Positions 15,346 through 61,450 of a DNA stretch of 64,000 nt are shown in pieces; position 1 is the first letter of the stretch, and each line of letters starts with the position of its first letter. Source of the DNA: Tachypleus tridentatus (Eukaryota > Arthropoda > Merostomata > Xiphosura > Limulidae). The notes under the pieces are model-generated. The model saw only the letters and a list, made by a program, of their open reading frames with translations, did no database searches and was not told the origin of the DNA. The stretch spans positions 159,607,290 through 159,671,289 of the forward strand of contig NC_134834.1 of NCBI RefSeq assembly GCF_004210375.1, written 5' to 3'. Made by a program: the position numbers and the translations under genes.

Positions 15346-16015
15346 TAGGAAACACAAGTATAAATATTCGTATGGTCGGAGTCATCTTCAGATAAGACAA
15401 TTTTATTTTTTAACAGGATGGTTGGCTTTTGAAATGGGTTTTCTTCAGACGTTGTAGAGGAAGTATAATTATTCAAACACAAAGCGATACAGTAGTAATA
15501 AAGTAATGGAAAATACATCATGGATTTATTGATGGTGCAAAATGTTATCATACAAAGTAAATATTAATACATAGAACAACATAGTAACGTTTTGTACTTG
15601 AACTCAGAACATTTTAATCTGTTTCCGTGCTGTTGTATAGTTTATTAATGTTCTGTTTAAGAACATTTATTGTTCCAAATTGTTCACCATGTTTTGTATT
15701 GCTTGTAAACCCATTAAACTCCCAACAGTCAAAGTTGGAATAAATACACTATATTATTTGATCTTGTACTATATATAGTACTAGGACTTACGAATAATTG
15801 TATAATATGAGAGCTCACCATAGTTATACGTACTGTTAATAGGGAGGGTTTTATTTACTCTATGTTTACTCAGATAATGTGGAACATAGTACTTTCATTA
15901 CAAAGCTGAATTTAAACAAATATTTCAAACTATGGAGATTGATATAAAGGATGACACAGATTGTCATGAGAGTTCCTTACTATAATGTCCAGGCCGACTA
16001 TGACATCTGTTACGA
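15346..16015. other. Unassigned sequence between CR1 and the first family A SINE
   Basis: No supported gene. A short minus-strand open frame at 15345-15551 has no recognisable domain. Confidence 0.3.
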
Positions 16016-16024
16016 TTATCAAAT

Positions 16025-16299
16025 CGGTTTGTTTGTTTTGAATTTCGCACAAAGCTACTCGAGGCTATCTGTGCTAGCCGTTCCTAATTTAGTAGTGTAA
16101 GACTAGAGGGAAGGCAGCTAGTCATCACCACCCACCGCCAACTCTTGGGATACTCTTTTACCAACGAATAGTGGGATTGACAGTCACATTATAACGCCCC
16201 CACAGCTGAAAGGGCTAGCATGTTTGGCGTGACGGGGATGCGAACCCGAGACCCTCAGATTATGAGTCGCACGCCTTAACACGCTTCGCCATGCCGGGC
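16025..16299 (-). repeat. SINE family A, full length, with 9-bp target duplication
   Basis: TTATCAAAT at 16016-16024 is repeated at 16300-16308. The tRNA-like head (at the right end) has the GCGTGCGACTC variant and a GCC-AAACAT junction, shared with the copies at 22265 and 43228, which marks a subfamily. Confidence 0.92.
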
Positions 16300-16757
16300 T
16301 TATCAAATGGGAAATGACAGTCTATTTTGCAAGTAGTCAATAGTGACGGTTTGGGAGATGTTTTGAGTAATATGTCTCGTTTAGCCATAACCTTTCTGAA
16401 AAAAAATAAGCTTTAAGTTTTAAGTAAATAGGCGGTTAAGTCAGGTATAAATTTAGCATCTGGTGTCATACAAGGAAAATCTTTGGTCAGTGCTGAAAAT
16501 GACAAGCGATACAGGGAGCTCAGAATCAGGCTATAGAAGTTCTGCATAATAAAACAATGAATCATAAACGTTTTGTGTTCAGAATATCTGAAGATAAGAG
16601 ACGAAGAACATTGACTCCTGACTTTTTTAACAAGTAATCATGATTCTCCTACCACATGAAAAGTCCTGTCAGTGTAAAACATCTGAGCTAGACTTTTTTT
16701 CTCTCCTTTCCATATAAACAGTGATTGAGGACTGAATATTACCCTCTACCGGTCCAG

Positions 16758-16840
16758 CGCTAGGACAGCGGTAAGTCTTCTGATTTGCAACACCAAAGTC
16801 AGGGGTTTTGCTAAAAGAAAAAAACACACACACATATTTT
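16758..16840 (+). repeat. tRNA-derived SINE, family B, internally deleted
   Basis: An A-box-like gacagcggtaag and anticodon-arm-like gatttgcaacacc are followed by a partial B box (caggggtttt), then straight to the tail aaacacacacacat. Confidence 0.6.
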
Positions 16841-17559
16841 TATTTTAGTAACCGACTGAGAATCTGTAGAATTTTCTATATCGGTATCAGGGAATGAATA
16901 TATAGATCCAACTCGTATCTTCATGTAAAAGCAAATATTGTCAGACCTGATGGCATTGATATAAAATTAAGGATAAAGAGACCTCTGTAAACTTTTTACT
17001 TCATTCACTGTTTTCTTAAATAGGCGTATAACTTAATGATAAAATCGTTTCTTCGTCTCACAATATTTATTCATATAAGGTCTACATAGAAACTTTACAA
17101 AGTTATAAATGGTGAGCTAACAAAAGTCATTTGACATCGTCCATGTGGATAAAAGACAAAGCAAGCAAATTTGTTGCATCATATTTAAATGATTGCAAAA
17201 ACGATGTAATCAACACATGGATACACGTGGTAGTTAAATAGGAAACATGATCGGTCGTTTATATTCGGATATATTTTAACAGAACAATTTCTTGCCTAAT
17301 GGTGTAAGTTTGGTACAAAAGCTCATTTTGTATTATACCAAGCGATGAATTGGGATTCAAAATTATCTGCGACGTGTTTCTATCTATGTTAAAAAGCTAA
17401 AATCAACCCATCAATCGTTCTGTTACATTCTAAAGCATTTCAGAAAAGAACAGCTATATATCCTTTGAAATATGTAATGTGTAAATCGTTTTCAGATCCC
17501 CAGAGACACGTAAGACATTTATCGCTAACGTGTTTTTAGATCAAATACCTACCCATCTT

Positions 17560-18000
17560 CTTATAGGATGTGTTGATAACGATGCATTTAATGGATTCTG
17601 AAAGTTCAACTAATATGATATCAATTTAGTGGCAATGAACGTGGACGGAAAACAGATGCCCACTCGATCTTTATAGTCAGATTTTGAAGCTGAGCTGAAT
17701 GTACGGTGTTTTTAAATATTGTTTAGAGGAACTAGAAATGATTTCAAGATGAAGGAATTGATATACTTAAGAGGATATACACTACCTACCTTTGATTGTA
17801 CACCTGATCTAAATTTACTGGTGATTCGTCACTTTAACTTGGTGAAACAGGGAAATATACAAATTAAAATACGTTTTGGTAGTGCTTTACCTGACAGTAA
17901 AATTCATTCAGTGTATACAGAAGTTCAATCAATTTTCACTTTATTCAGTGTAGAGAGAGCAAATGGAACCGCCTTATACAATGCTTTGTCAGACAGGTAA
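17560..18000 (+). pseudogene. Decayed capsid-like ORF of an invertebrate virus-like / Maverick-like element (F54H12.2-like family)
   Basis: One reading frame, interrupted by four in-frame stops between about 17599 and 17712 and then open for 17719-18000, resembles proteins often labelled uncharacterized protein F54H12.2-like in invertebrate genomes. I believe that family is a capsid-type protein of Maverick/Polinton or related virus-like elements, but the assignment is from memory. The order of aromatic-rich blocks (an FN..DIN segment, a DG-x3-P segment, a GYTLP-F-x-TPD segment, then a strand-rich block near the end) supports it. The open part stops at a TAA at 17998-18000, which lies within CAG|GTAAGT; the donor-like match is probably accidental. 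No partner genes (polymerase, integrase, protease) were found nearby. Confidence 0.5.
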
Positions 18001-18641
18001 GTTTAGTAACGTATGCCATCCAAAACGTTCATAGAGAATGTATAATTATTATTTCAGTGTAATTGAATTTTTGTTTAAAATAACATTTAATAATTGTTAC
18101 TTAAAATAATAAATTCAACGTGTGTAAAATGTTTCAAAATATTTAATATATAATGAATTAAAATAGAAAATAATTTGGTATCAAAAATTATTTAAATAAC
18201 TTGTATAAAAAATCCACTTTCTCAAAGAGTACCGTGACTTTTTACCAGCAAAGATACTTAATGTTCTCGTATAAATACTAAATTTCGAATTTAATTAACT
18301 GAATTTGAACAGTTCGTAATGTTTGAAATCTATAAATGTTCCTTGTCAAATTCTGTAGTTTTCCGATTAATAAACATTAATCACAATTATAGCTTCCGAG
18401 GCATATATTATCCTGACGCGTTGGTTCATATTCTTTAAGACGAGATTCTCGAACATTTAATAATGTTGGAGACACACTAGTGTTTTTGTAAATTATATAT
18501 TGCTGATTCTTGCTCTCGAGAATCTTTTATAAATTTAGAGAACAGGCGGGACTTCAGCAATACACATCTAGCAATATACGTCACATACATAAAGGTGAAA
18601 CGACAAATAGGTATTAAAATAGACGCACAAGAGTTAATCCG

Positions 18642-18801
18642 TTACATGGTTAATCCCACTATTCACTGGTGTAAGAGTAGTTCAACAGTTGGCGGTGGGT
18701 GGTGATGACTAGCTGCCTTCTCTCTAGTCTTACGCTGTTAAATTAGGGACGGCTATCTCAGATAGCCCTCATGTGGCTTTGCACGAAATACAAATCAAAC
18801 C
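18642..18801 (+). repeat. SINE family A, 5'-truncated
   Basis: Lacks the tRNA head and starts within the gtcaatcccact part of the body. Body and tail are otherwise recognisable. Confidence 0.88.
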
Positions 18802-18993
18802 GAAACAATTGGAGTTTTAATTCAGTAGTTAGAGCAAAAGCTTTGAAATTTTCCTACAACAGTTACAACTTCATATCTTGTAATTTTACCATAATATTTA
18901 CAGCTTCGTTACTTGTAATTTTATAGTATCCTTTAAAACTTCACAACTGGTAACTCTGACGCAATAACCACATTTTGAAGTTCATCGTTCCCT

Positions 18994-19100
18994 TGTGAGA
19001 CAGCAGTAAATTGACGGACTCCCAACGCTAAAATCCGGGGTTCGACTCCCCTCGGCGGAACAGTAAATAGCCCAGTGTGGCTTTTATCGAAGCCCATCAA
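18994..19100 (+). repeat. tRNA-derived SINE, family B
   Basis: Contains a near-perfect B box (GGGGTTCGACTCCCC at ~19038) and the family tail (aatagcccagtgtggcttt). The A box is mutated, so it is not a tRNA gene. Confidence 0.7.
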
Positions 19101-19216
19101 AATTTAAATCTGAAGAATTTATACACAATGTTATTTGTTGAGCGTTGTGCTTACATGCTTAAAAATAGTAGAAGAGAGTAATAGAAACAGTGTGAACTAG
19201 AAGTAATAATTACTTT

Positions 19217-19321
19217 TTACTGCCAGTTACTTTAACTATATCCAATTTCTGCTTTTTTGTATCATGATGAATGAACACAATTTCTTCAGAACATAAATAA
19301 TATACAAAAGCACATTCAATT
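19217..19321 (-). repeat. Module E, copy 1 (joined to the family A SINE at 19322)
   Basis: About 103 bp directly beside the SINE tail is an inverted, ~98% identical copy of 31971-32076. It has no CpG and no open frame. It lies outside the SINE's apparent ATTCAATT target duplication. See findings. Confidence 0.8.
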
Positions 19322-19608
19322 CGTTTGTTTGTTTGTTTGTTTTAAATTTCGCGCACAGCTACTCGAGGGCTATTGGCGCTAGCCGTCCCTAACTTTGCGG
19401 TGTAAGACTAGAGGGAAGGCAGCTAGTCATCACCACCCACCGCCAACTCTTGGGCTGCTCTTTTACCAACGAACAGTGGGATTGACCGTAACATTATAAC
19501 GGCCCCACGGCTGAAAGAGCGAGCATGTTTGGTGCGACCGGGATACGAACCCGCGACCTTCAGAGTGCCAATCGGACACCTTAACCCACCTGGCCATGCC
19601 GGACCCAT
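19322..19608 (-). repeat. SINE family A, full length, with 8-bp target duplication
   Basis: ATTCAATT at 19314-19321 is repeated at 19609-19616. The anticodon-arm region is mutated compared with other copies. Confidence 0.88.
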
Positions 19609-19734
19609 ATTCAATTTACAAAGGAAAATAAACGTTTTAAAAGAAGTAAAATTAATGACTGTCTCTATCTTAGATATATACATATAAAACATAAGCATAC
19701 TTCAAACATGTTGGAAAATATTAGTGTATATATA

Positions 19735-19762
19735 TACATACACATATGTGTGTGTGTGTGTA
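19735..19762. repeat. TA/TG microsatellite
   Basis: A mixed (TA)n then (TG)n tract of about 28 bp. Confidence 0.85.
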
Positions 19763-19764
19763 AC

Positions 19765-20215
19765 CTTAAAGTAACGACCAGATTCGTTTTAACTCTTCAA
19801 ATGAAAATTAAACACATGTTAAGAAAAGTATATAATGAATCCACCCTACTGGCTAACATTGACAAAATACAGTGTATCACTTACTCAGCATCATACACGG
19901 GTGAAACTGGATATAACTTGAAAGTCGGGTTAAAATAAAACGAAGGACCCCCTTTCCAAGTCCATGAACTTACGAACAAAAACAAACAGTTTTTCAGACA
20001 GAATGTCACAGCACTAAAACATGGACCTGACATTAACAGAAGGAAAATCAGAGAAACTTTATGAATAAAATCAAACAATTCTACAAATGATATGAACATG
20101 CGTAAGAAACCATTATGGGTTTTCTAATTTCCAATAAAGGGGTTCGGCCACCTGTAATTAATCTGTCGCATCATTGTATCATAGTATGTTGTCTGTCAGT
20201 CAGCCACTAGACAGT
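19765..20215 (+). mobile_element. Penelope-like element (PLE) 3' fragment with GIY-YIG endonuclease remnant
   Basis: Plus-strand frames give YTGETGYNLKVGL (the GIY-YIG endonuclease start, normally Y-x-G-x-T-G-x-x-L) and, after a stop, a TKHGPDIN-like block typical of the PLE C-terminus. The reverse transcriptase is missing. PLEs insert through RT plus this nicking endonuclease. This copy is truncated and has stops. Confidence 0.65.
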
Positions 20216-20492
20216 AACATGATGTTAAATAAAGGATGCTTAGCGTTGCAATTTGTACTGTCATCACGTGAGTAAAATACGCGCATGCCATGAATCACGA
20301 GAATTATGCACTCTGTAGCATGACACGTGAACTTCAAAACATTTAAATAAAAATACTTCTACTTGCTATTCTTAATTTTGATTTTATTTAATCTTGTTCT
20401 GTTTCAAGAGTGTTAGTTTAAATACTAGAACCTTCTTTACCGTCAGAAAAACTATGCACTTGAGAATAATTATCAATGATAAAAATATTTTG

Positions 20493-20770
20493 GGCCCGGC
20501 ATGGCCAGGTGGTTAAGGCACTCCACTCGAAATTCGAGGATCGCGGGTTTGAATCTCCGTCACACCAAACATGCTCTCCCTTTCAGCCGTGGGGCCGTTA
20601 TAATGTGACGGTCAATCCTACTATTCATTGGTAAAAGAGTAGCCAAAGAGTTGGCGGTGGGTGGTGATGACTAGCTGCCTTCCCTCTAGTCTTACACTTC
20701 TGCATTAGGGACAGCTAGCGTAAATAACCCTCGTGTAACTTTGCGTGAAATTCAAAACAGATCAAACAAA
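20493..20770 (+). repeat. SINE family A, full length
   Basis: Starts GGCCCGGCATGGCCAGG. Head, body and AAACA-rich tail are all present. Confidence 0.92.
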
Positions 20771-21421
20771 TTTTGACTCTACCATTTTAAAAGGTTTTCT
20801 GGTGTTTTATTATTCGATATTAATATTTTAGGAAGGGTTTCTAGATTACTATGTTTTATTTGTAGGGGTTTCTGGATTTTTCACCACACAACTATCAGTA
20901 TTTTTAATGCTACTTTCAATACGTGAACTTTGTTTTTTGTTGTTAACTGAAAGGTGAACAACGGACTTTCTTTTAGAAGCTATTATAGGTATAGATCCCC
21001 CAAATTTTGAGTTATAAGCCCTCGTGTTTAACACTGAGCCAAAGCTGTATTAATGTTCTTTAAACATCTTGCATAAAAAATTACAAAATTATCAGGTAGC
21101 TTATACATCCAAACTAACTGTTTCTAAACGTTCTAACATAATTAGAAATTTTAAATCGTCTAGGTGCTCATAAAGCACTTTAAATAAACAAATACAATTA
21201 CACGTTCACACGAGCTAACGTCAGACTCATGGCCGTGCAGTGAAAATTAAAAAACTGTTTCGACTAAATCTTTTTACAAATTAAACTACCATTTTATAAT
21301 AAACACGTGCTTCGATGAGGGTTTTTTTAATTATTTAAGCTGTAGACTTGCAGACGTGTTGTAAAATATTAGTTGTGAAATGATACAGAAAGGCGAACGT
21401 TTAACACACCTGTCAGGTTTT

Positions 21422-21698
21422 GGTTTGATTTGTTTAGAATTTCGCGCAAAGCTACACGAGAGCTACCTGCGCTAGCCGTCTTTACTTTAGCAGTGTAATA
21501 ATAGAGAGAAGGCAGATAGTTATCACCACCCACCGCCAACTCTTGGGCTACTCTTTTACTAACGAATAGTGGAATTGACCGTTACATTATAACGCTCCCA
21601 TGGCTCAAAGGGCGAGCGTGTTTGGTGCGACGGGGATTCAAACCTGCGACCCTCAAATTTCGACTGGAGTCCCCTAACCACCTGGTCATGCTGGGCCC
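21422..21698 (-). repeat. SINE family A, full length
   Basis: The head at the right end reads catgctgggccc. The body is well preserved. The minus-strand open frame over it is a by-product. Confidence 0.92.
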
Positions 21699-22262
21699 CT
21701 CTTGTTCAGAAAAATTGTAAAAATTCACATTAGGATGATATACGCTTAATTTATTTTTTACATCGTTACTCAAGATTTGTACTGTATCAAAGAGTAGAGA
21801 GAAAGGTGTATATACTAGCCAGTTACGAAAAGACACATGTCATTTGTATTATACTCTACATACATATTACTCAAATTACCTAGTCGTATTACTCTTTATA
21901 CAGGACTTGTACAAGACCATTCAACATGACTTTCCTTCATGTCCTACTTATGCTACAAGAAAGTCAATGCCTCAAAGACTTTACAACAGAGGTTCATTTA
22001 TTTATTTCTATTAATTATCTCGTGCCCTTAAAACTTGTTCCTAGGTTCACTAATATGGTCCTTCAGTTTAATAAATCTTTGTAGTTGCTTGGTCTTAATG
22101 AATCTACAATTTTGATTTCATTTTCCTCTATAATTTACTTACTCATATGGTTTTAAATATTTCTTTGTGTTCTTCAGGTTGCCATGATAGAAAATATGGG
22201 AGTGTAGTGCTGTTATCGTACAATATTAATATAGTCTATACCAGTGATTTTCAACCATTGAC

Positions 22263-22528
22263 AAGGCCCGGCATGGCCTAGCGCGTAAGGCGTGCGACTC
22301 GTAATCCTAGGGTCGCGGGTTCGCGCCCGCGTCGCGCTAAACATGCTCGCCCTTCCAGCCGTGGAGGCGTTATAATGTTACGGTCAATCCCACTATTCGT
22401 TGGTAAAAGATTTGGCGGTGGGTGGTGATGACTAGCTGCCTTCCCTCTAGTCTTACACTGCTAAATTAGGGACGGCTAGCACAGATAGCCCTCGAGTAGC
22501 TTTGTGCGAAATTCCAAAACAAACAATC
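22263..22528 (+). repeat. SINE family A, full length, with 11-bp target duplication
   Basis: CAACCATTGAC at 22252-22262 recurs at 22529-22539. The B box is GGGTTCGCGCCC and the head has the GCGTGCGACTC subfamily variant. The perfect duplication suggests a fairly recent insertion. Confidence 0.94.
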
Positions 22529-23803
22529 CAACCATTGACTCATGGATGGATGCTGGTCAAGAGGGATGTTTGAGCTGATTAATAAGACGGTAGAAAAATG
22601 TATTTTAAAATAAAACTGTTGAAGTACATTGTTTTACAGTGCAATGTAAAATGAAATTAAAAGGTTAATATTATATGAAGTGGTGCGCGAACTTTTGGGA
22701 TTGGAACTAAATGGTTCTCGGAAAGAAAGAAGTAAGAAACAATGTCTATAATATACTATACATAAATTTATTTACTGTTATAAGGTACATTTTAAATATC
22801 TAAAAATAAATATCTAGTTTAAAATGCTGATGAAATAATGACCTAACATTGTGTGTAGTAAGTATAAAACCAAAATAATACAAATGGCAGAGCAAATGAA
22901 TCAGAAATTAGTTAAGTATTCAGGAAATTAATTAATGAGTATTCCGTTACTGAGTTTATTCGTTCAGTGTCAGTTAGTGAGTTGGTCAGTGTTAATTATT
23001 GTGTCTTTTAGTCTTTTATTCAAGTAATCAGCTAGTTAACCAGCATACTTATAAATGATCCATTAGTGAAGAAATTCTGCAAGCAAGTTTATTTGTGAGT
23101 TAGGACATATTTTTATCAAACGTTTGTGAAGTTAGGCCTACAAGTGAACATAGCCTTTTGCAAACATTATTGAATAAGTAAATTGATTTGTTATTTGAAC
23201 TAGATTGGGTATTATTGTTACGAGATAACATAAAAGGATTCACTCAATGATAGAACAAATTACAACCGTAGTGCCAAAAGTGGGATTATTTTGGTGAAAT
23301 TCAAATAGAAGTATGACTAACTCAAGATGAAAACATAAAGTATGACCAAATATTTGCAGAGATTATGAAACAGTTAAATAATAACCGAATATAAAGACAC
23401 AGAAAAATGATAGAACAAAAACAAAAAGACAGATAATTAAAAAAGAAGAAGAAAGAAACAGGAAACTAAAGGAAGACAAAAAAGAAAGAGAGAGAATTTT
23501 AAGAAATGATATAAAAGAAAGAGATGTAATATTTAATAATAATTAAAAACAATATATATATTTTAAAACCACCTGATAAAGACATTGGAAATATAGAGAA
23601 TGATTACAGCAGAAACACTAACAGACATCATAAGGTACAGCAAGATCTATGAAATTGAGAAGAAACTAATAAAAGATTAAAACATTTGAAAAAAATAATT
23701 GATAAATGTAAAGATCAAACCAATTACAATTTTTTTCTGCATCTGCTCAATACGTTTAATCGATCACACCATTTACAATTAAATATGAAACAGGATAACT
23801 TAT

Positions 23804-24330
23804 TTGATGTACACCTGCTACTATTATTGCTGTAACATTTGTGACTGCTGGACATTCCTGGATTACTACATTTCTGACACAACCAAATTAAGGTCAAGAA
23901 CATCGTTAAATGGAGAAATCAATGTCTGTGATGAAAAGGCATCATGGGGGCCATATCAGGATCAGTTCAAAAGAATTTTCAACGTGACCAGATGGAATAG
24001 TTTACAACGATCTAATAATATTGCTGCTCATTTGAAATGGCCAATTTTAATTACAATAAGCAACTCTCTATCTGAGAACTATAACAACAGTCAAAGGTTC
24101 AGAGTAACACACTAGAAGTAAATATCAAAACAAAGTTCCAGAACAAGGTACAGAAGAAAAAAAGAGACCTTGACCAAACTGGCAGAAGATTTGGAAGGAC
24201 TTGCTCAATTATCTTACGTGCATAATTCACGTAAAATGGTGGATTTGTGGCTACATGGACAACGTGTTGATAAAATAACAGTAAAAGAGATGAGAATTAG
24301 ATTGAAGTAGAATGAATGTACACCCTTAAA
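23804..24330 (+). pseudogene. Retrotransposon gag remnant
   Basis: Two frames carry the pieces: codons up to 24115 contain WGPYQDQFKRIFNVTRW, and a second frame from ~24170 carries the LAEDLEGLAQLSY block. Gag packages element RNA into particles. The frameshift near 24115 and stops make it non-functional. Confidence 0.5.
23843..23990 (+). repeat. Direct repeat inside the LTR element, copy 1
   Basis: About 148 bp of the gag region, repeated at 24785-24933 at ~90% identity. Confidence 0.85.
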
Positions 24331-24784
24331 GAAAGCTCTTCAGTTGGTGAAGAAGTTTAAATCCATTAAACTGGCAGTTAATCAACGAAAAGTATTGTCT
24401 AGAAGTTACACGATCATAAAATCCTATAGTGTTTAAACATCAACTCCAACTATATAGAAGTAAAGGAATCAGCTAGTGTTATAGAGGATAGTTCAATTGT
24501 GAATGCTTCATCTGCTTCAAATGAGATAATAAAGTTTAGTATTTAAAGAAACCAGTAGAAGAGTCCATTAAATTACTACTGGGAAACCTTGTGGTATGTT
24601 GATTTACACTGGTTATACAGCTGTAAAAGTCTGATCTAATTTGGTAATGATGCGTGGAAAATTGTTTCCAAAGATGAAGAAATAAGATGAATTGAAACTC
24701 CAGCAAGAGAAAGGTTGAAAGTTACCATTATTGTTCGAAACATAAATTCTAGCGAGTAAACTCGTTATGAATTTGTTTCAAAAT

Positions 24785-24933
24785 GACTGCAGGACATTCC
24801 TGGATTACTACATTTCTAACACAACCAAATTAAGCTCAACAACATCGTAAAATGGAGAAACCAATGTTCTGTGATAGAAAGGCATCATGGGGGCCATATC
24901 AGGATCAGTTCAAAATAATTTTCAAAGTGACCA
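24785..24933 (+). repeat. Direct repeat inside the LTR element, copy 2
   Basis: Duplicate of 23843-23990, broken by a stop. It sits downstream of the gag remnant, where a protease would be expected. Confidence 0.85.
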
Positions 24934-26092
24934 TAACGTTGTAAACAACGTTAATATAGGGATCAGAAACAAACTATGAATTAATTTTGTTTACAGAAAT
25001 ATTACAGATCCTTGAAAACCAGGATATTAGCACTTTATCTATTTTTCAATAGCATGGTGAGGAAATAAAACCATACATTTTTAATTTAATTCATTATTCA
25101 TGTAGGTGAACATCAGAAAACGATGGATTGAGATCTTTCACTATTACTCAAGTGTCATTAAAATACACGAAGCTACAGGCAACACAGTATCGTCATTAAA
25201 TGTTTTGGAGAGAACTTAACGAACCTTTAGGCCTTTTGTTCTCGTATTCAAATGATAATCATTCAAAAGAATTTTAAATATAATTTGCAGACAGACTAAG
25301 GATTATCAGTGATGTTCTGCACGACTTTACCCAGGAAAGACTTAAATCAGCTAATGATAAAACGAAAAGTTGCTGCAATGCTAATGGTGTATTATATTGA
25401 AGTGATACGATATGGCTATACAATTCCTTACACAAGAAATGGCATATTCTGAAGTTAACCAGATATGAATCTGCTGAAAAACTCAGGGTCCCAGTTGAGA
25501 TCATTTCTATATAATCAGCATAACTATTTACCTAAGGAAAAACTATCCCCCTTTATTGACAGAAGAGCAAGCTATGATAGGAAACAAGAGGCCACACCCT
25601 ATGCATACCATAGTCCTTAGAAGAGAAGTCCACAAAATACTTTAATAATAGACAGTTTAGTGTACTGTTTTACTCATGCATGTATTTAGGATTGTTTAAG
25701 GGACGTTACAAGTAAATAAAAGAAGCTGTGTTGTGAGCTATATTTATAATATTTTAATCGAGATATTTGTTTGCTAAAGGGAGTTAATCGTGATGATGGT
25801 GTTATAATCTAAATCTAGGATGATATAAATGCCAAAGTGATTGTGTAAGTAATCAGTGATGAATTCTTTTCATGAGTTTATCAGTTCAGTGTCTGTTAGT
25901 GATTTACCCTGTGAGAAATATTGTATCTATTAATCATCAAATGAATTAGTCAGTGCATTTGTTATTAAGAAAATCTCTTAGAGAAGAATTTTTTTAAATA
26001 AATTTTTGTGAACTTAGTGTGTAGTAAATGTTTGTGGAGAAATGACTTAATTGGTTTCTGTTACACGGGACGCACTTGGTATTATTTTTGCT

Positions 26093-27772
26093 TCTTAATC
26101 CCCAATTATCTATGACAGTAAAAGAGCGTGTCTGTATGTCGTGTGTATGTATGTGTGTGACTACCATAAGTACAATAGGAAAGAAGCTAGAAACCTGAAA
26201 TTTTGTACACATTCTAAGTGAGTCCTGAACGCGTGCACATAGCTATTGTTACTTATTCACGTGCATTCACCGGTGCTCACCTTTTTATGAGGCAAGGTAG
26301 CAAAAAACCATATAGAAAACAATATGTGACTTCTATATCCTTAAAGTTATTATCTCATACTGGTGTTACATTTGGTATTTAATAAGTAAGACTACTACCC
26401 TCATTGAAACCAAATATATATTTTTATTAAAGCAACATTTCAATCATTATCAGGCTTAGGATGCGGCACACTCCAGAGACCCCACACACATTTATCAACA
26501 GGCAGAGTTCAAAGATGCCACTAACATTTCTACACAGGTGAAACTGGGAGAAAAAAATGTGTCCACTCAATCAAAAGAACATATTTCAACGATAGAAAAC
26601 TTTCCTTCAAAATAAAACCTCAAGCATGGATTCTGTAACTGGTTATCAGGAAGGAGGAACATAATGAAAAATGATATCAAGACTTTAATTTACATTTCAG
26701 TAACGGCACTTGTAGATAGAGACAACGATTTCAACTTTGAGAAATTTGTAAGTCAAGCCTAATGACGGATCATAGTTATTTGTTCTTAATATCTCATATA
26801 ATCACTGGTTTTTGAATAAGATTTTATTTAATAGTTTTCTATATATGTTGTTGTAAACTATATATTTAATATAATTTATTTGCACACTGCAATTCGTAAT
26901 TATGACGTAATTATCAAAGAGTTTTGAGAAATATCTAAAAACATAGAATAGAGATATAAGTACAAGTAGACAATTAGTTCAGAGATAAGAAATGAAAGTG
27001 AATGAGTTTCACATTTATTCTGTTACTCAATTACTTGATGACTTACGCGTTTGATTACCCAAATCAAAAAACTATTTATTTAGTTACGTGTACGCTTCGC
27101 AGTTTACACTAAGACGTTATACAAAAGTCTGGGCTGTCTTCCACAACAGAAAGCTTTAAACCTTAGCTTAAAAGATAACACAAAATCAGGGTTCGAGCTT
27201 CGGATCGACAATCACGATGATGGTTAAAGGTAAATGTTGAATTATGGCTAACATTGCATGATTGAAATTTTTATAGATACTGCAGATAGATGAAAAGTGG
27301 CAAGCTGGAGATGGTAAAAATGATGGCTGTTCTGGGCGAAAGTGAAGCAGGAATTTTGTTGCTATATATTTTATTTAGAAAATATTTATTTTCAGCTACA
27401 GTATGCAGAAACGACAGTCCATCACAGTGAAGAAGGGTCATATATATATATATCACGATCAGAACTCCATCAGAAATAGAAGGGGAGAAGTGTATTAATA
27501 TAAGCAATTCATAATTGTTAAGTAACATATGTTTGACCTTACAGAATGTGTAGAGTGTCATTATAAAAGGAAATCGAGTCAGCTGCAGTAAAACTGTGAC
27601 TGACTTCACTATGGGCAGAGAAGAGGAATAGGAAGAGGGAAATATAACAATTGTATGAAATATTAAAAATGCTTATTTGTACATATGTGTTACTATATTA
27701 TGACACATTGTTTCATATTGTCTTTGAATTTATATACATGCAACTACACAACTCGAAAAATCCATATGATTA
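26093..27772. other. Largely unassigned; possible PLE remnant at 26420-26760
   Basis: A plus-strand fragment near 26530 reads FYTGETGRKK, like the start of a PLE GIY-YIG domain. On the minus strand at 26431-26454 there is CCTGATAATGATTGAAATG, a PLE-type terminal motif. The remainder, including a 112-codon minus-strand open frame at 27271-27609 and a (TA)n tract at 27440, shows no recognisable coding signal. Confidence 0.35.
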
Positions 27773-29269
27773 CACTATGTAACAAAATGTTTACTTTTTC
27801 TTGTTCATGGGCTAAAAGTTATTTCTCATTTCCTTATGCCTAAAGTAATGAAAAAGACTTATTTTTCTATTAAAACTTTGTTTTTGTGACTTGGGTAATG
27901 AAATTTTCAAATTTACCCATTTTCCAGAACATGCCAGGTAGATTCAGTGCTGAGTAGCTGATTGAGATTTTTTTAGAATTTTCAAGAACTTTTCATAGTA
28001 ATATATATATACAGGAGCTCACCACTTCAGTTTAGTTCTAGCTGCCTAAGTGAAGACATAGACCGATCTGATTTTATCAGAGATGGCAAAAAGATGCTGC
28101 AAGCATTCTCCAGATGCATCCAGAAACCTCAAAGCTATGCTGCTCCATAACGGGAATAAGTATCTGTCTCTTCCCCTGGTTCATTCTGTGCACCTCAAAG
28201 AGGAATACAACAGCTTCAAGATCTTGCTAGGAGCATTGAAGTATGATGAGTATGGCTGGGAAGTTATCGGAAACTTCAAAATGGTAGCATTCCTGATGGG
28301 TTTCCAAGGAGGCTTTACCAAGTTTCCCCTATTATCTTTGCCTTTGGGACAACAGGGACACCGCAGCGCACTACAATAGAAAGCACTAGCCACAACGGAC
28401 CGAGTTCTCTGTGGAAAAGCACAATTTCAAGTGTGAGCCACTAGTGAACCTCCAGAAGGTGTTGTTTCCACCATTGCACATAAAATTGGGTCTTATGAAA
28501 CAATTTGTCACAGCTCTTGATAAGGAGTCTGTAGCCTTCAAGTACCTTCGAGACTTCTTCCCTAATCTGTCTGAGACAAAGGTCAAAACTGTTGTATTCG
28601 TTGGACCACAAACAAAAAAGAACCTTGGAGTGCATAGAATTCCCCAAGAAGCTCAGTAGGAAGGAAAAGAAAAAGCTTGTGGCTGCTTTGTCGCAGTGGT
28701 TTTGGGCTTCTCGGGTAATCAAAAGGCCGAAACTTATGTGGAACTGGTTGAGGCCCTTGTGAAGAACTACAGCAAAACGGGCTGCAGTGTGTCCCTAAAA
28801 GTCCATATCCTTGACACTCATCTTGATAAATTCAAGGAGAACATGGGAGCATACTCAGAAGAGCGAGACGAGCGCTTCCACCAAGAACTACTGGATTTTG
28901 AACGCCGCTACCAAGGAGCGTATAACGAAAACATGATGGGGACCTATATTTGTGGGCTGATACGTGAAAGTCATTTACATTACATTCGCAAATCTCGAAA
29001 AACTGCTCACTTCTAAACATTTTTTGTATAACTTGAGTATAAATACACGTTAATCTTGATTCATATTTTGTTTTATTCAGACCTTATGTGAATGAAAATG
29101 TGCAAATTTGCCCGTTTTTACACAGAAAATAGGTTAATTTCTAAATTTCATTAGTCAGCTCACAAAAGCAAAGTTTGAAGGCAATAATGGCCATTTTCTC
29201 TACTTTTACAAGATAAGCAATTAAGAACTAACACATACTATCCAGGAACAAAATTTGTGATATATAGTG
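27773..29269 (+). mobile_element. CACTA-type (CMC) DNA transposon, internally deleted
   Basis: The ends are CACTAT at 27773 and ATAGTG at 29264-29269, flanked on both sides by TTA, a 3-bp target duplication. Long imperfect terminal inverted repeats of ~110-160 bp follow; the best-matching inner parts are around 27875-27937 and 29125-29190. CACTA ends with a 3-bp duplication are the hallmark of the CACTA/EnSpm (CMC) superfamily. The inside carries a frameshifted intronless coding region (28083-29016). At about 1.5 kb the copy has lost the N-terminal part of its protein. Confidence 0.72.
28083..29016 (+). pseudogene. Frameshifted transposase-like protein of the CACTA-type element
   Basis: Three plus-strand blocks follow in order. 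28083-28379 has LKAMLLHNGNKYLSLPLVHS, then WEVIGNFKMVAFLMGFQGG. 28411-28659 has PPLHIKLGLMKQFVTALDKE and FVGPQTKKNL. 28696-29016 has VELVEALVKNYSKTGCSVSL, HxDKFKENMGAYSEERDERFHQE and the C-terminal HYIRKSRKTAHF. I recognise this as a protein family repeated many times in arthropod and cnidarian genomes and usually unnamed. Its place between CACTA ends makes a CMC transposase the best guess. Two or more frameshifts and a stop separate the blocks, and the Cys-rich part expected after FTKFP is scrambled. The ATG at 28083 is internal to the family, so the true N-terminus is missing. Confidence 0.68.
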
Positions 29270-29285
29270 TTATATATATATATAC
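29270..29285. repeat. TA microsatellite at the transposon edge
   Basis: A short (TA)n tract immediately outside the right CACTA end. Confidence 0.7.
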
Positions 29286-29872
29286 GGCTTTACCATAAAA
29301 AACAACAACTGTAAAGTCTGCATATTTGTATAGATATAAATTCTAGCCACCATACTTTGCATGTGTAATCGTGTATAAAACTCATATGATTACAAAATCC
29401 ATGCACCATTCCAGTTTAGTTTGTTAGGCTCTCCAATCCAGTGTTTACAAACTCACCATATAGCTCCAGGGTATAAAAATTGCAGCTATATATATTTTAA
29501 AAATACATAATATATGGTATGTTGATAACTTTGCATCATAGTGATCATACTTACAGTACCAATATCAATGATAACACTTGAGCAATAGCCATCCAATTTC
29601 TACAAAGCCAATCTGAAGACTGCCATTTTTTCCCGGAGACAGAACTGTACATTCACTATGTACTTCGTATCAACTATGTACTTCGTTAAATTAAATTGTT
29701 TCAAATAGGAGAGTAATGGATACATATTTCTGACCATGATGGACATAAAAAACAAAAAAAACAAGATTATTAAAAATTGTAAATTTAAAAAGGATATAAA
29801 GACCTTCAAAAATTACAGAAAAAAGACAAAATATATGAAGCGAAAATGTAAAGAAAAAAATGTAAACAAACA

Positions 29873-29991
29873 TGTTTGAGACATAGTGTTGACACTATTT
29901 CCTCACGCCACATATTCATATTTTAGACATGGAGTCAAAATAAGAGTTTGTAGCTTGAGGAAATAATGTCACCACTATGTCTCAAACCTTG
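29873..29991. repeat. Hairpin repeat
   Basis: Arms of ~33 bp (gtttgagacatagtg... and its inverse ...cactatgtctcaaac) match at about 90% around a ~50 bp spacer. A minimal foldback element or MITE is possible; its family is not recognised. Confidence 0.6.
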
Positions 29992-30844
29992 AACTTGTTT
30001 CTTTACTTTTTTTACGATTGTATTTTCACTTTAAATTGCATATCTTGTCTCATTAATTTCTTGAAGATTCTTATTCATTCTTTTTAAATTAAAATTGCAA
30101 ATAATATTGTTACGTAACAGGTTACTAAATAATTATTTTATCACAAATATCCACATCAAAATTAGGTCATATTTCAAGTGCTAGACGTTACACATTTTAA
30201 ATTTATTCACAGCATAACTAAAGTCAAAGTGCTTGGTGGATCAGTCTATTTGCTTAACTTTTGAAAAATATTATAATATCGTATTAGTAACAGTTTTACA
30301 TCAGTTCACACTGAGGAGTGCCATAACTAGATTTAAGACATTTATATATGTTTTTGTTTTTAGTGATATTACTGAAAAACGATTATATCTTAATTTACAA
30401 AGCCATAGTCGTGTTTGATTAACCTTATGAAAAGCCAATATAAGTTATAAAGTTACTTGGTGATGAATTAAACAAAAAAAGACGCTTTGGGTGAGCAACA
30501 GTTTGAAGCAGGAACTGAACATGTTATACGCTTGTTTCAAGATAGCACTATTTTGATCTTATAAACAATGATGGATGAGCGTTACATTATTTTAATGGTT
30601 TTCATTGCTTCGATGTTACCAACATAAAAGTATTCTTTATTGAAAGGTATATATATAAATGTATATAAACGTTCATGCCGTATATGAGTCAGTTATAGTA
30701 ATCAAGAACAATGTTTCTAACACAATAACTCTATAGATTAAAAAAGAACTATATGTTTAGATTTCATTTTAAAAACATCCATCATTGTTGTTTGCAGGAA
30801 ACGGTCTAAGTTTCTATAAGTGTTTTGTTTTGACATATTTATTA
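29992..30844. other. Unassigned AT-rich stretch
   Basis: No supported gene or repeat family. Confidence 0.3.
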
Positions 30845-30925
30845 ATCAAGGGTTCGATTCCCTTCGATGGACTCAGGAGATAGCCCGATGTGGTTGTGCT
30901 ATAAGAAAACACACACACATCTTTA
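30845..30925 (+). repeat. tRNA-derived SINE, family B, 5'-truncated
   Basis: B box AGGGTTCGATTCCCT, then agatagcccgatgtgg and an acacacac tail. Confidence 0.75.
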
Positions 30926-31299
30926 TTATTTGTCAACAGAAAACAATTAACTTTCTCTCAAATTTCATCTTTCATTTTTCGAACATGATGTCCACCATTG
31001 ATCTAGGTGTGGGCCAATCACATGTGTTGATGTCCTTCTAAAAGGAACATTTTCAGTCTGGTTATTATTGATTGGTTAATAAAGTAAATTCAAACATAAC
31101 TACAAATTAAGTGCTCTGATATATTAAAAACTTATCTTTTATATGTCTAAATAACGCAGGGACCAGAGTAAAATAACTGCTTATTCAGCATCTTAAAAGC
31201 AGTTGTGCAGTAGAACTAGTTAGAATGACAAGAATAAATAAATCAGCAAATGTTCAGGTAAATACTATTTACATAAAGTCACCTAAATCTTCGCTGACT

Positions 31300-31405
31300 T
31301 AGTGTGTGTTTTTTTTATAACAAAGTCATATTGGGCTATCTGTTATGTTCACCCAGGGGAAATGAACCCCTGATTTTAGCGTTGTAAATTAGAAGACCTA
31401 CCGTT
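31300..31405 (-). repeat. tRNA-derived SINE, family B
   Basis: Inverted copy with the tail tgtgtg at the left, agcccaatatgact on the minus strand, a mutated B box, and the head ending near 31400. Confidence 0.7.
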
Positions 31406-31688
31406 GACTTGTTTTAGGAGACAAAAGGTATTCAAGTGTTGAAAAGCAGAATGTATAATTGATGATATTCAAACTACCAACAATAACTAAACTTAGTTAA
31501 GAAACAGAAAACCAGCAGGGTGAAAGATGCAGTTTGCACGAGTAAATGAAAAGCAACATTAAGTGAAGATAGCTTGTTTTAAATATCGAGAGAACCTGTA
31601 CTCAGTCAGGTCCAGCTACTTGGTCGAACCTAACTTGTAACTAACAACTATAAGTGCTTGTAGTGTAACCAGGATTATCTAACCATAG

Positions 31689-31970
31689 TAGGCCTGGCAT
31701 GACCAGGTGATTAAGGCACTCGGCTCATAATCTCAGGGTCACGGGTTCGAAACCCCGTCGCACCAAGCATGCTCGCCCTTTCAGCCGTGAGGGCGTTATA
31801 ATGTTACGGTCAATCCCACTATTCGTTGGTAAAAGAGTAGCCCAAGAGTTGGCGGTGGGTGATGATGACTAGTTGCCTTCCCTCTAGTCTTTCACTGCTA
31901 AATTAGAGATGGCCAACGCAGATAACCCTCGTGTAGCTTTGCGCGAAATTCAAAACCAAACAAACAAACA
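31689..31970 (+). repeat. SINE family A, full length, joined to module E
   Basis: Head, body and AAACAAACAAAC tail are all present. It runs without a gap into module E at 31971. It is ~87% identical to the 19322 copy. Confidence 0.9.
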
Positions 31971-32076
31971 AATTGAATGAGCTTTTGTATATTATTTATG
32001 TTCTGAAGAAATTGTGTTCATTCATCATGATACAAAAAAGCAGAAATTGGATATAGTTAAAGTAACTGGCAGTTAT
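31971..32076 (+). repeat. Module E, copy 2
   Basis: Two mismatches in ~103 bp against the inverse of 19217-19321. The match ends at actggcagt. Confidence 0.85.
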
Positions 32077-32736
32077 GGATTTTATTTTGAAAATCAAAAA
32101 TACACAACTCATGAGAGATATAATTAAACCAATTTACAAATTGGAAACGTAATGAATTAATAAATTATAATGAGTATACTGGAATAGACGGCAACTTACT
32201 GTTTTAGAAAAAAAATCCTCTACACTTGCGTCTTTTTTCACGATAGACAATTGCCGACCATTCCAATGTACTCAGCATGAATACATTTCCTAAACAAACT
32301 ATTAAAGAATGATAAATTATAACATTAGATAAGATCTTAAATGCTAATATTTTCTTAATATTATATTCAGTAGCGGATCCATGATTGTCAGATACTTTCA
32401 AACACGTTCTGTTGACTTTGACTGACTTGTAAGAAAGGAAGGACTGAAAACAGTGAAGGGACTTTTCTCAGCAAACAGACAATTAAAATAACGAGTGCAT
32501 AGTAAGAAATACAGCACATTCATTGGATGCAAGTCTGTGTAGAACAGGGATCCCCAAACGTTTTTGAATGTCGACCTCTTCATGGAATCCTTGACCTTTA
32601 ATCGACCTCTCCATTATTTTAAGTAATAAAAATCTATAAGTCATAGTTAAAGGAAGAATAACTTAATAAAACATATAAATAATAATAATACATTACGATA
32701 AACCAATTTTACATTTCGATTGATCGTCTGACATCT

Positions 32737-34840
32737 TTAATAGAAGGGATATGATTGACGATCTTTGAGAAGAGCACTAATATTTGATTGTAAATTTCTG
32801 AGTTTTAGTCTTAATTCACCGCGCTCTTCTATGTTCAGTTTGTTCTTCTGCTTTGTTAGGACTGAATTTATATGGATAAAACCACCTTCAACCATATAGG
32901 AACTTTGGAATGTAAGTAAAAAAGGGTTCACTGCTGCGAAAAGTTTTGGATACTTATTGACAATAGTTACATTACTCCAAAAGCTGCTGAGTGTCGTATT
33001 TTTGAACAGTGATTTAGCTTCAAGATCCACGGAAAGTTCAATGAGTTCATCTTGTAAATTAGGTTCGATAATTACCTTTTCTATTTCCCAATCAAATGGC
33101 GTAACAATCCAGTCAGATACGTGCATTCTCTCCATGTCCTCAAAGCGCACTTCAAAGTCTTCACTTAATTTTCCAAGGTGCTTTATGTATATATCCAAGT
33201 CATCATCAGACATAACTTGGTCTTCATCTTCCAGTTGCCTAAGTTGAAAAGTGCTGAAAATCACTTAGTAGCTATGAAGATTTAAAAAGGCCTTTGAATT
33301 GGAAGTCTGAGAGGATTGTTCGGGTTTGAATCATTGTTACGTTTTTACCTTGCAGACAGGTCTGTACATCATTAAATTTTGAATATAGATCTGACAAATA
33401 GAAAAAATGATTCTTATTTTTTTCAATTCATCACACAGAAAGGGATCCACGTCTGTAAGAAACTCCACAGGTGAGTCATACAACTCGGCAAGCCTTTGCA
33501 AGCAAACACCTCTTGACAACCACCTCATTTCAGTATGCAACAGTAATTGGTTCACCAATTCATCTTTTTTTTTTTACATAGCCTAGCAAACAGTCGCGAA
33601 TTAAGTGGATGTGCTGTAATTTTATTTATCGATCTGATGCACACCTTTAGAGTATCATGCAATTTGTCACTGAGACTTTTTGCCACAAAGTGGTGTCTGT
33701 ATAATACACAGTGAATAGTACGCACATCGGGAACCTTTTCCTCAAGAAAGGCAGCAAATCTTCTGTAACAGCCAACTATTAAAGGTGCGTCATCTGTGGC
33801 AATCGCAATTATATTGCTGAGTGGAATATTGTGCTTGTTTAAATATTCCTCCAAGCATTAAAAAATCGTCACCCATTTTGCATCACCTTTACGACACCTT
33901 GCGAACAAAAACTTGTCAATAATTTGTTTTGGAATTTAACTAAAATACCTCACATAAGATATAAGAATGTTTGAACCACCAAAAGTTGGTTCATAAAGTT
34001 GGATGGAAAACTTACTTTGCATAAGCTCAGATTCCAAAGTTTTTTTTTCATCTTTCACCATCTTATCAACACGTCTTTGAACTGCATTTGCATTTAAAGG
34101 CAAGCATTTTAAAACAGATCCAGAGTCTTTTTTTCGTGACAGTTTAAATCACTTCTTTAATTGATGGTATTATGGTCTCCTCTATAACAGTATACATTTT
34201 TCCTTTCTTTGCTATATTGAGAGAAATATTATATGATGCCCTTAACCCTCCTTCATTATCAACCTGAAGCAGGTGCTCTCATAAATGGCATCATATTTGG
34301 TCGTTTTTTCATATTTTTCTTTCAACGTTCTTAAAAAATCAAGATCTTTATATTTTTTATCAAGATGAATTCTTTGAAGGTGGTCTTTCATCTTTGTGGC
34401 TTGCCATGGCCAGCTGGATAAGGCGCTCGACTCGTAATCCCATGGTCGCGGGTTAGAATATCCGTCGCATCAAACATGCTCACTCTTTTTGCCGTTGGTG
34501 CGTTATAATGTACGGTCAATTCCACTATTCGTTGGTAAAAGAGTAGCCCAAGAGTTGGCGGTGCGTGGTAATGACTAGCTGCCTTCCCTCTAGTCTTACA
34601 CTGCTAAATTAGGAAGGCTAACGCAGATAACCCTCGTGTAGCTTTGCGTGAAATTCAAAAAACAAACTTCCTTCTTTGCTGGTTTCTTGGCATCATTACT
34701 AACAACCTTTTCGCATAGGAGGCACAAAGGCTTCGTTTCATTTGTAAGCGAACGTATGAATCCAAGTTTCAAGTAATCTGGTGAATATTGTCAGCTCTTC
34801 TTTTTAGGATCTGCGGCTGCTATTTCAGTTAATGGGTTCG
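32737..34840 (-). pseudogene. Broken hAT transposase (ZBED5/FAM200/SCAND3-like)
   Basis: Reading down the minus strand: a BED-type finger near 34740 (KPLCLLCEKVVSNDAKKPA) is split by the SINE, and its His part (LQRIHLDKKY) resumes at ~34380. A central part runs 33854-33552 (IPLSNIIAIATDDAPLIVG, then TIHCVLYRHHFVAK), which holds the catalytic-core Asp region. Next is TEMRWLSRGVCLQRLAEL at ~33520. The longest open piece, 33264-32737, ends with the hAT dimerisation-type segment (LNIEERGELRLKL). Frameshifts, stops and the SINE separate these, so no transposase can be made. Related proteins have been domesticated in vertebrates, but this copy shows only decay. Confidence 0.85.
34398..34667 (+). 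repeat. SINE family A nested in the hAT zinc finger
   Basis: Starts GGCTTGCCATGGCC, with body and tail intact. The hAT coding sequence resumes on both sides, with a similar tctttg at each junction. It inserted after the hAT element. Confidence 0.92.
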
Positions 34841-42155: not shown

Positions 42156-42262
42156 TTGGTTTGTTTGTTTTTTAATCTCGCGCAAAGCTACACGAGGGTT
42201 ATCTGCGCTAGACGTCCATCATTTAGCAGTGTAAGACTAGAAGGAAGGCAGCTAGTCATCAT
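42156..42262 (-). repeat. SINE family A, 3' half
   Basis: Tail and second half of the body only. Ends abruptly at gatgact, where module D begins. Confidence 0.82.
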
Positions 42263-42626
42263 AAGCTATGTGTGCTGAATCCATCGCGAGGGATCGAAAG
42301 CTGAATTTCAGTATTATAAGTTTGCAAGTTTACCGCTAGCCCATAAAGGGTTTGTTTGTGTTTGGAATTTCGCGCAAAACTACTCGAGGGCTATCTGCGC
42401 TAGCCGTCCCTAATTTAACAGTGTAAGACTAGAGGGAAGGCAACTAGTCATCACCATCCCTCGCTAACTTTAGGGCTACTCTTTTACCAACGAACAGTGA
42501 GATTGACCGTTACATTATAACGCCCCCACGGCTGAAAGGGCGAGTCTGTTTGGTGTGACAAGATTGGAACCCGCGACCCTCGGATTACGAGTCGAGTGCT
42601 TTAACCACCTGGCCATGCCGAGCCAA
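42263..42626 (-). repeat. Compound SINE (family A + module D), copy 1
   Basis: Minus strand order: family A (42626-42350), then module D (42349-42263), a tRNA-like unit with ggctagcggtaaac and the B-box-like tttcgatccctcg. The A part shows the diagnostic agccctaaagtt change shared only with the 44414 copy. Confidence 0.85.
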
Positions 42627-43503: not shown

Positions 43504-44413
43504 GCGTATTGTAATGTGTTATGTAGAATTTTATATATATATATGTCTGCTTAGGTTATACATTGACTGACACATGTTGTTATGCAAAATGTCAATGTCA
43601 TATTAGGTTAAGTTAAGCCTTAACTTTGAGGTGAAAAAGTTTAATATTTGATTGATTGGATTGCCTCTTTGCGATTTTTAAGTAACTGCCACTGCTCTTT
43701 TCTTTCGAATAATATGACTGTTAAGTTTCTCATAAATCGTGTTAAAGACTATCTAATATCTGCACTCAAATTGTAACTAACAAACACTGTTTATGTATAC
43801 TATATAGAAATTTTGTGGTATAATGTTAGCAGGTTATTGGCACCGAAATCTTCCCAGTCAGAATATATTTGTATGAACTGAACTTTTTTACAATTTTCTT
43901 GTAAGTATAAAAATGAATCAAATACATAAGTATTTATCAACATAAGTATTTTTCTTCTCATTGCATTTCCTATTTTTCACTGTATTTTGTACTTACATAT
44001 ATTACCCATGTTACAAGACAACCTATGACATTCTTACACTTGTAACCTGTATCTTATGCTTTGATTTGATTGTTTGTAAAAGGGAACAGTGTTAAGATAA
44101 TATATGTAGTTATAAGAACCAATGTAAAAATTCTTTTTCGAAAATTAAAATCTAACAATAAGATGTTTTATAAAACTGACTGAAAGGTAAAAGTTAGTAA
44201 ACAACCGAAGCAATTTATGTCATGAAGTGACAATGGAAGAAGTAACTTTATCACTCTATATATCCGTGTTCTTTCTGATGTAATTACAATAATTTACATC
44301 ACTGATCATGTAACGTAAGTACTTTTATTACAATTAAAGTTTTAAAAATTTTTCCTGTTTCATTTACCCTATCAGATTGATTATAGACTTACACATCCCA
44401 GCAAGTCCCTTTA

Positions 44414-44795
44414 GGGGTGGACCCGGCATGGCCAGGTGGGTTAAGGCATTCCCCTTGTAATCTGAGGGTCACGGGTTCGAATCCCCGTCGCACCAAACAT
44501 GCTCGCCCTGTCAGCCGTGAGGGGGTGATAAAATGTGACGGTCAATCCCGCTGTTCGTTGGTAAAAGAGTAGCCCTAAAGTTGGCGGGGGATGGTGATGA
44601 CTAGCTGCCTTCTCTCTAGTCTTACACTGTTAAATTAGGGACAGCTAGCGCAGATAGCCCTCATGTAGCTATGCGCGAAATTCCAAAAACAAACAAACCC
44701 TTTATGGGCTAGCGGTAAACTTGCAAACTGATAATACTGAAATTCAGCTTTCGATCCTTCGCGATGGATTCAGCACACATAGCTTATGGTGTATG
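44414..44795 (+). repeat. Compound SINE (family A + module D), copy 2
   Basis: Family A at 44414-44697 is followed without a break by module D at 44698-44795. D is ~97% identical to the first copy (about 3 differences in 94 bp). Confidence 0.88.
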
Positions 44796-45225
44796 TTTTT
44801 ATCGGAAAAATAAGTGAATGCCAAAACAAAATATCTTTCTTCTGTAACATCAGTATTTTCAAAGAACCTCAAACCAGAATGAAGCTTCTTCAGTTGCTCT
44901 TCTATAGACCTTTCTTCAGAGTAAACTAAGTCGTTGGTTCTTAGATTACATTAGATCTCGGGACGGTAACGAGTCTCTTCATTAGTGGAAATGTCAGTTT
45001 TATGTACACGTTCTACAGTTTACTTTTAATGAATTTCGGTCGAACCTTAAGTTTATGTGCCATTTGCACAAAGACTTCTTTCCATTTCTTTTGCATTATC
45101 TCGAAAGCTGTAATGCTTAACAAGAGTGTCTTAGTAACAAGTGCAGCTATAAACTAGATATGTACTGCTCCTGAACACGTGATATAGATTCCAAACTTGA
45201 AATAGTCAGTTCTAAGAAAGTAGTG

Positions 45226-61394: not shown

Positions 61395-61450
61395 CATCGT
61401 TTGGTGGTAGGGCGCTTGTTTCATAATCTAGTAGTCACGTGTTTGACTCC
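61395..61450 (+). repeat. tRNA-like sequence directly before the LINE endonuclease
   Basis: tttggtggtagggcgc (A box), gtttcataatc (Met-CAT-like anticodon arm) and gtgtttgactcc (B box). There is no closing acceptor stem. Either a 5' SINE head at the insertion point or a tRNA-derived promoter of the LINE. Confidence 0.5.

Follow-up and report, generated by a model that had tools for sequence, protein, structure and literature searches.

A host segment beside two separately inserted SINEs in Tachypleus tridentatus suggests templated insertion resembling 3' transduction

Unique flanks common to short interspersed nuclear elements (SINEs) are usually read as transductions and are used to trace source elements. 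Here we describe a window of 64,000 nucleotides of Tachypleus tridentatus (NC_134834.1, positions 159,607,290 to 159,671,289, forward strand; unprefixed coordinates below are those of the window), in which a 103-bp segment, termed E, adjoins the (CAAA)n tail of a tRNA-derived SINE at each of two loci. E occupies 19219-19321 at locus 1 and, inverted, 31971-32073 at locus 2, and the two copies are identical at 102 of 103 positions, although the adjoining elements, SINE 1 and SINE 2, are separate and much more diverged insertions. The features of the two loci are as follows.

19219..19321, minus (SINE orientation minus): E, donor copy; host DNA forming the 3' flank of SINE 1
19314..19321: ATTCAATT, tail-side target duplication of SINE 1, which also forms the end of E
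19322..19606, minus: SINE 1, tRNA-derived, with (CAAA)n tail, oriented with its head at 19606 and its tail toward 19322
19609..19616: ATTCAATT, head-side target duplication of SINE 1
31690..31970, plus: SINE 2, the recipient; same family, separate insertion
about 31957-31970, plus: (CAAA)n tail of SINE 2, the putative priming site
31971..32073, plus: E as a copied patch, joined to the SINE 2 tail; 102/103 against the donor
32079..32544, plus: 3' flank of locus 2 (termed G); 85% identical to a paralog at C10:156569814-156570281

Divergence of E and of the adjoining SINEs

The single difference within E is an A/T. A preliminary description of this DNA had counted about two, which holds if the C/T at the first tail base (the junction, where locus 1 has a CpG) is included. 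E itself contains no CpG, as had also been stated, and no third copy was found in the window, where a 16-bp chance match was all that appeared. In a 31-copy alignment, SINE 1 and SINE 2 differ at 44 of 270 columns; the earlier statement that the SINEs are far more diverged than E stands, whereas its figure of about 35 of 275 was too low. When SINE and E are aligned together by pairwise BLAST, 42 of 382 columns are mismatched. Measured against the consensus of the 29 other copies, from which both SINEs were left out, SINE 1 has changed at 22 and SINE 2 at 24 of 270 positions. If E had diverged at the SINE rate, no more than one difference in 103 positions would be expected with a probability of about 2e-7 for all sites and about 5e-7 for the non-CpG rate. 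As had been argued, such unequal divergence speaks against a simple duplication or a simple 3' transduction.

It had also been proposed that E is under selection or that only the SINEs decay fast, at their CpG sites. The lack of internal CpG in E would suit the latter idea, but outside CpG sites the SINEs still differ at 36 of 230 positions (15.7%, compared with 8 of 40 at CpG sites), and CpG decay in the SINEs alone was therefore rejected.

SINE 1 and SINE 2 are separate insertions of the same family, since they have no rare derived state in common, as opposed to 44 private differences. They jointly depart from the consensus at one position, at which 28% of the other copies do likewise. Two states of SINE 1, at consensus positions 251 and 263 (each carried by one of the 29 other copies), do not occur in SINE 2, which places the switch of ancestry in or beside the tail repeat. 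At the head of SINE 1, ARAGORN called a tRNA-Ala-like gene (19530-19605). A scan of 15000-33000 against Rfam at gathering scores gave no match, and three SINE strings of 20 to 23 letters had no match in the literature text searched.

Donor, recipient, and the occurrence of E in the genome

Locus 1 is the donor of E. SINE 1 (19337-19606) is flanked by AATTGAAT/AATTGAAT, matching at 8 of 8 positions, a score reached by 2 of 200 shuffles, and the repeat on the E side coincides with the end of E. Because E thus ends in the target duplication of SINE 1, it was the native 3' flank when SINE 1 landed, and locus 1, already carrying SINE 1, was the donor; the preliminary description had rightly taken this locus as the original. 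At locus 2, the same end of E is joined to the SINE tail, and ATTCAATT is absent at the head of SINE 2. The further proposal that locus 2 is a transduced copy was not supported: a target duplication looked for around SINE 2 plus E (the unit at 31689-32076) was not found, the best inexact match being reached by 97 of 100 shuffles and the best adjacent match being 5 of 10; no A-rich or CAAA tail follows E at locus 2, where E is succeeded by TATGGATTTT; and SINE 2 is a different insertion. Landing of the two SINEs in two copies of the ATTCAATT site was likewise rejected, given that locus 2 has neither ATTCAATT at the head nor the continuing flank of locus 1.

The genome searched was the assembly of 2,167,478,450 bases in 205 sequences, with a search that skips very common words; the queries were SINE 1 with E, E, the locus-2 flank, 44700-45200, and 43505-44415. 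Coagulin, a family of clotting proteins of horseshoe crabs, has 19 matches in this assembly and is present in 0 of 14 control genomes, and one exon is identical at 48 of 48 aligned residues to coagulogen of T. tridentatus (PDB 1aoc). E was found at three places, i.e., locus 1, locus 2, and C10:161037023 (3 of 3 candidates scored). As these three places are all accounted for, E is unique host DNA; it is not a repeat and does not belong to a SINE lineage. The suggestion that it forms a 3' extension of such a lineage, like that of a repeat family, was dropped. A candidate partial copy at C3:61861300 (match from query position 79) was also discarded, having only 7-9 base matches to E. We found neither many SINE-free copies of E nor equal divergence once CpG sites are excluded, the two results that the preliminary description had named as telling against it.

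The third copy of E lies in a contig, C10:161019104-161047164, that duplicates window positions 1-29737 in nine blocks with 97.8-99.7% identity, 1.41 Mb away. Its match to C10 extends from at least 159587290 (at least 20 kb upstream of the window) to window position 29737, is broken by insertions and a single unmatched stretch, and ends at a gap of 500 N. In this contig E is identical at 105 of 105 positions, the left flank differs at 16 of 1499, and the SINE differs at 8 of 284 aligned positions. The contig is probably the other haplotype, left unmerged in the assembly; such an unpurged contig may help explain why the assembly is larger than others of T. tridentatus, for which the probable columns of a flat-text table give 1.72 and 1.94 Gb (PMC7815833). 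The divergence of E between the two loci (1/103) is close to that of the left flank in the duplicate contig, so that there is no need to invoke selection on E: a single difference at locus 2 is the amount expected of neutral DNA about as old as the haplotypes, and the copy is young. With the SINEs being separate insertions and no other relative of E found in the genome, selection on E or fast CpG decay has a negligible chance of accounting for the contrast.

Three stretches of the window are absent from the duplicate contig (5436-6717, 1280 bp; 23615-25160, 1544 bp; 26756-26971, 214 bp). Opposite window position 19880, the contig has a 1.7-kb insertion with terminal inverted repeats CAGGGGTGTGCAAC and a target duplication of 8-9 bp, which we take, by eye, to resemble a hAT-type transposon. 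A tandem array of about 10.9 kb directly follows the scaffold gap.

Where the preliminary description offered gene conversion or selection, it is copying of a gene-conversion-like kind that our data support, and selection is superfluous. Gene conversion could also have acted in another way: E and its SINE might have been duplicated together as one longer segment, and conversion from other copies might afterwards have replaced the SINE at locus 2. Conversion between Alu copies is documented and has been reported within about 10 kb (PMC8230782). Such a history, however, needs two events, with about 270 bp replaced and E untouched, and the locus-1 flanks other than E do not match locus 2; we regard it as very improbable.

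A second SINE pair at 42-44 kb

The window was compared with itself, and alignments that leave the SINEs were collected. Besides the E pair, one other alignment with long support was obtained (42257-42620 with 44791-44424), in which the 3' half of a SINE and a flank are held in common. This flank, termed F, comprises 92 bp of 3' flank and is 97% identical beside both SINEs. The features of the pair are as follows.

42169..42261, minus: SINE fragment beyond F (consensus 174-266), perhaps the remainder of the recipient SINE
42257..42345, minus: copied flank F, its far end joined to the SINE fragment
42359..42624, minus: recipient SINE; 7 rare states in common with the SINE at 44419, all beyond consensus position 130
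44419..44692, plus: donor SINE, with a CCCTTTA repeat near head and tail
44701..44791, plus: donor flank F; one other close copy in the genome

At consensus positions 1-130, the two SINEs have no rare states in common and 24 private ones, whereas at positions 131-270, 7 rare states are shared and 10 are private (Fisher P 0.0009 between the two parts); a further joint state, at position 30, was left out as too common. In this pair, ancestry changes within the SINE itself. Source SINE sequence accompanies the flank in its 3' half only, and donor-specific states inside the SINE, present in this pair (7), are lacking in the E pair (0). All 3 candidates from the genome search with F were scored; beyond one close partner there was a weak 57-bp match, and the close copy sits beside an inverted SINE about 1.8 kb off. 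The recipient has the appearance of one older SINE into which a copied patch was placed.

The second case also bears on whether locus 2 might be an artefact, a suspicion that an assembly with apparently unmerged haplotypes invites. E at locus 2, however, has its own substitution and a defined junction, and a case of the same form, with F 97% identical, exists at 42-44 kb; it is hardly credible that misassembly created the arrangement.

Outside the window, we compiled the repeats that reach 85% identity and include more than 35 non-SINE bases, in the 20 kb upstream and in about 44 kb right of the duplicate contig, and no further case was found there. Of the right-hand repeats, 9 were re-examined after exclusion of the satellite array and of shorter alignments that overlap in the same arrays; none abutted a SINE, the nearest being at least 70 bases off. 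Two weaker alignments within the window that extend slightly beyond SINEs were not counted, i.e., 31675-31971 with 58597-58893 (30 non-SINE bases, 83%) and 22232-22532 with 31661-31969 (43 non-SINE bases, 80.5%).

Repair copying primed in a SINE tail, and its alternatives

Our best reading, which we hold to be probable but far from secure, is that E reached locus 2 as a templated insertion anchored in SINE homology, which mimics 3' transduction. SINE 2 would already have been in place before E arrived. After a break at its tail, or at the junction just past the tail, a 3' end in the (CAAA)n repeat would have annealed to the tail of SINE 1, inverted 12 kb off, and extension through the 103 bp past that tail would have copied E. 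The new strand would then have been released, and end joining, at little or no homology, would have attached it to the far side of the break, leaving a SINE that bears a young copy of the 3' flank of another SINE. The break (or stalled fork), the DNA template, and the order of the steps are what we infer. The priming junction is the tail repeat, and the far junction has about 1 bp of homology for E and 2-3 bp for F, as judged by eye.

In both pairs (2/2), the SINEs lie in inverted, head-to-head orientation with their tails pointing outward, about 1.8 kb apart in the second pair and 12.1 kb apart in the E pair. In this layout, the broken recipient would offer a 3' end in SINE sense, and 1.8 or 12 kb back along that strand the donor is present in antisense; pairing would place the 3' end where extension enters the 3' flank of the donor, and the strand may either fold back or invade. 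If the four possible arrangements were equally likely, two head-to-head pairs of two would be met by chance 1 time in 16, which is suggestive only in favor of the mechanism.

In yeast, local foldback insertions are primed at one end at an inverted microhomology and end-joined at the other with 0-5 bp; they measure 2 to about 150 bp and are mostly under 14 (PMC11724301). In a screen of human templated insertions, the template lay within 100 bp (PMC8421209). The two cases described here resemble such foldback insertions and those of microhomology-mediated break-induced replication (MMBIR), as these sources present them, in that the copy is inverted relative to the template in both pairs, with homology at one junction and almost none at the other, and a patch of about 100 bp fits the length range of yeast foldback. 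They differ from them in that the template is 1.8-12 kb off and priming would lie in dispersed SINEs rather than in local inverted microhomology. Alu-Alu gene conversion, as reported, is similarly an exchange between neighboring SINEs of unlike sequence over a range of about 10 kb; in contrast to it, the tract exits the SINE here and takes unique flank, and case 1 moved hardly any SINE sequence (PMC8230782). Among the titles and abstract openings listed by our literature searches, we found no account of SINE-tail-primed copying of a unique flank.

A repair patch could instead be templated by RNA, in the style of class 2 templated sequence insertion polymorphisms (TSIPs): a transcript reading through SINE 1 would anneal to the tail repeat at a break in the tail of SINE 2, and its cDNA would fill the break. 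As far as they are described in PMC5110952, class 2 TSIPs share with our cases the missing target duplication, the lack of a new tail or poly(A), and the end-joining-like far junction. The same product would be expected either way, and the junctions do not discriminate. However, apart from the weak 57-bp match of F, copies of E and F were found only in their own neighborhood or the duplicate contig, and RNA would have no reason to favor a partner 2-12 kb away; moreover, TTTT stands near the start of E. In contrast to the TSIPs of that account, the donor is nearby here and joined via SINE homology, and our cases are known from the sequence of one assembly. We think patching by RNA distinctly unlikely.

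In SINE or long interspersed nuclear element (LINE) 3' transduction, a unique 3' flank comes to lie next to another member of the SINE family. By target-primed reverse transcription, SINE 1 would be read through together with E, the enzyme would switch SINE RNA at the tail, and the chimera would insert. Several observations agree with it: the 911-bp stretch at 43505-44415, which holds the 5' flanks of two SINEs, was found once only in the genome; F ends about 7 bp before TTTTT, a natural RNA polymerase III (Pol III) stop; and the family was recently active, as the duplicate contig has a clean empty site where the window has a SINE (22265-22522). On the other hand, a unit around which no target duplication was found, with no tail after the flank and with unrelated SINEs, is unlike a transduction. 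The source SINE was not carried along in the E pair (0 rare shared states and 44 private), Pol III would tend to stop at the TTTT near the start of E, and the far end of F in the second case joins the inside of a SINE fragment. Transduction is, in our judgment, an unlikely origin.

The SINE at 22265-22522, which has the target repeat CAACCATTGAC, is absent from the duplicate contig and yet 9.7% from the consensus; it represents recent activity from a diverged source. Since so recent an insertion is this far from the consensus, consensus distance is not age here, and SINE 1 and SINE 2 are left undated.

The 3' flank of locus 2, G, has a paralog at C10:156569814-156570281, the single one among 40 scored candidates of 194, apart from dispersed-transposon matches. 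There, a SINE tail comes within a few bases of the flank, and E does not intervene. SINE 2 and the SINE of the paralog are 84% identical, the flanks are 85% identical, and the two SINEs agree against the consensus at four places, in states seen in 10-43% of the other copies; they may derive from one old insertion. The paralog is a supportive E-less arrangement and not a proven state before the arrival of E, because the 5' flanks of the two SINEs are unrelated.

That last point is one of several that weigh against tail-primed repair copying. (i) The evidence comes from one assembly, and the duplicate contig stops about 2 kb before locus 2, so that no E-less allele was seen. (ii) In a simple scan, 6 of 27 SINE copies, including SINE 2, have no exact repeat of at least 6 bp; a missing target duplication is not rare, which suits transduction, and is weak evidence alone, while short repeats elsewhere may be due to chance. 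(iii) In both cases it is the 3' flank that was copied, as transduction would also predict. (iv) An old target duplication around the second recipient, as expected if the patch lies inside one older SINE, has weak backing (8/10), with a score that 53 of 500 shuffles reach. (v) The total of 7 rare states in the second pair is not extreme, as 5 of 465 copy pairs exceed it and others tie; it is the clustering of these states, together with F, that carries the argument. (vi) The nearness of donor and recipient is partly a matter of ascertainment, the initial scan having covered one window. (vii) The 12-kb spacing is far beyond published local foldback; since foldback insertions are local, strand invasion is likelier than a hairpin.

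Taken as a single event, the insertion is of modest importance. Flank and SINE have different histories here, and such loci would mislead both source tracing and dating by flank identity. The two cases also have a signature that can be counted (a common 3' flank, unlike SINEs, no target duplication, and inverted head-to-head neighbors), by which template-switch repair between SINEs could be measured in a SINE-rich genome. More broadly, head-to-head pairs of this SINE may constitute a standing substrate in this genome, in which broken tails repeatedly prime on the inverted neighbor and acquire about 100 bp of unique sequence from its 3' flank; in that case many apparent SINE 3' transductions would be repair products, and flanks would spread locally without retrotransposition. 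We offer this generalization tentatively, as an idea that is possible but rather doubtful.

Several other features were observed in the window. From 32545 onward, next to G, another dispersed transposon, with a CAGGGATCCCCAAAC end, begins; it has many copies of 83-90% identity and is presumably hAT-like, by eye. A 175-amino-acid open reading frame (ORF) at 32737-33264 has no Pfam family match at E 0.01. At 61427-61942 and 63289-63816, there are pieces of endonuclease and reverse transcriptase, as of a LINE-type element. An ORF of glycosyltransferase family 92 lies at 52240-53856 (Pfam PF01697, E 9.9e-38), and its end runs into an array of 25-bp tandem repeats from 53824 onward.

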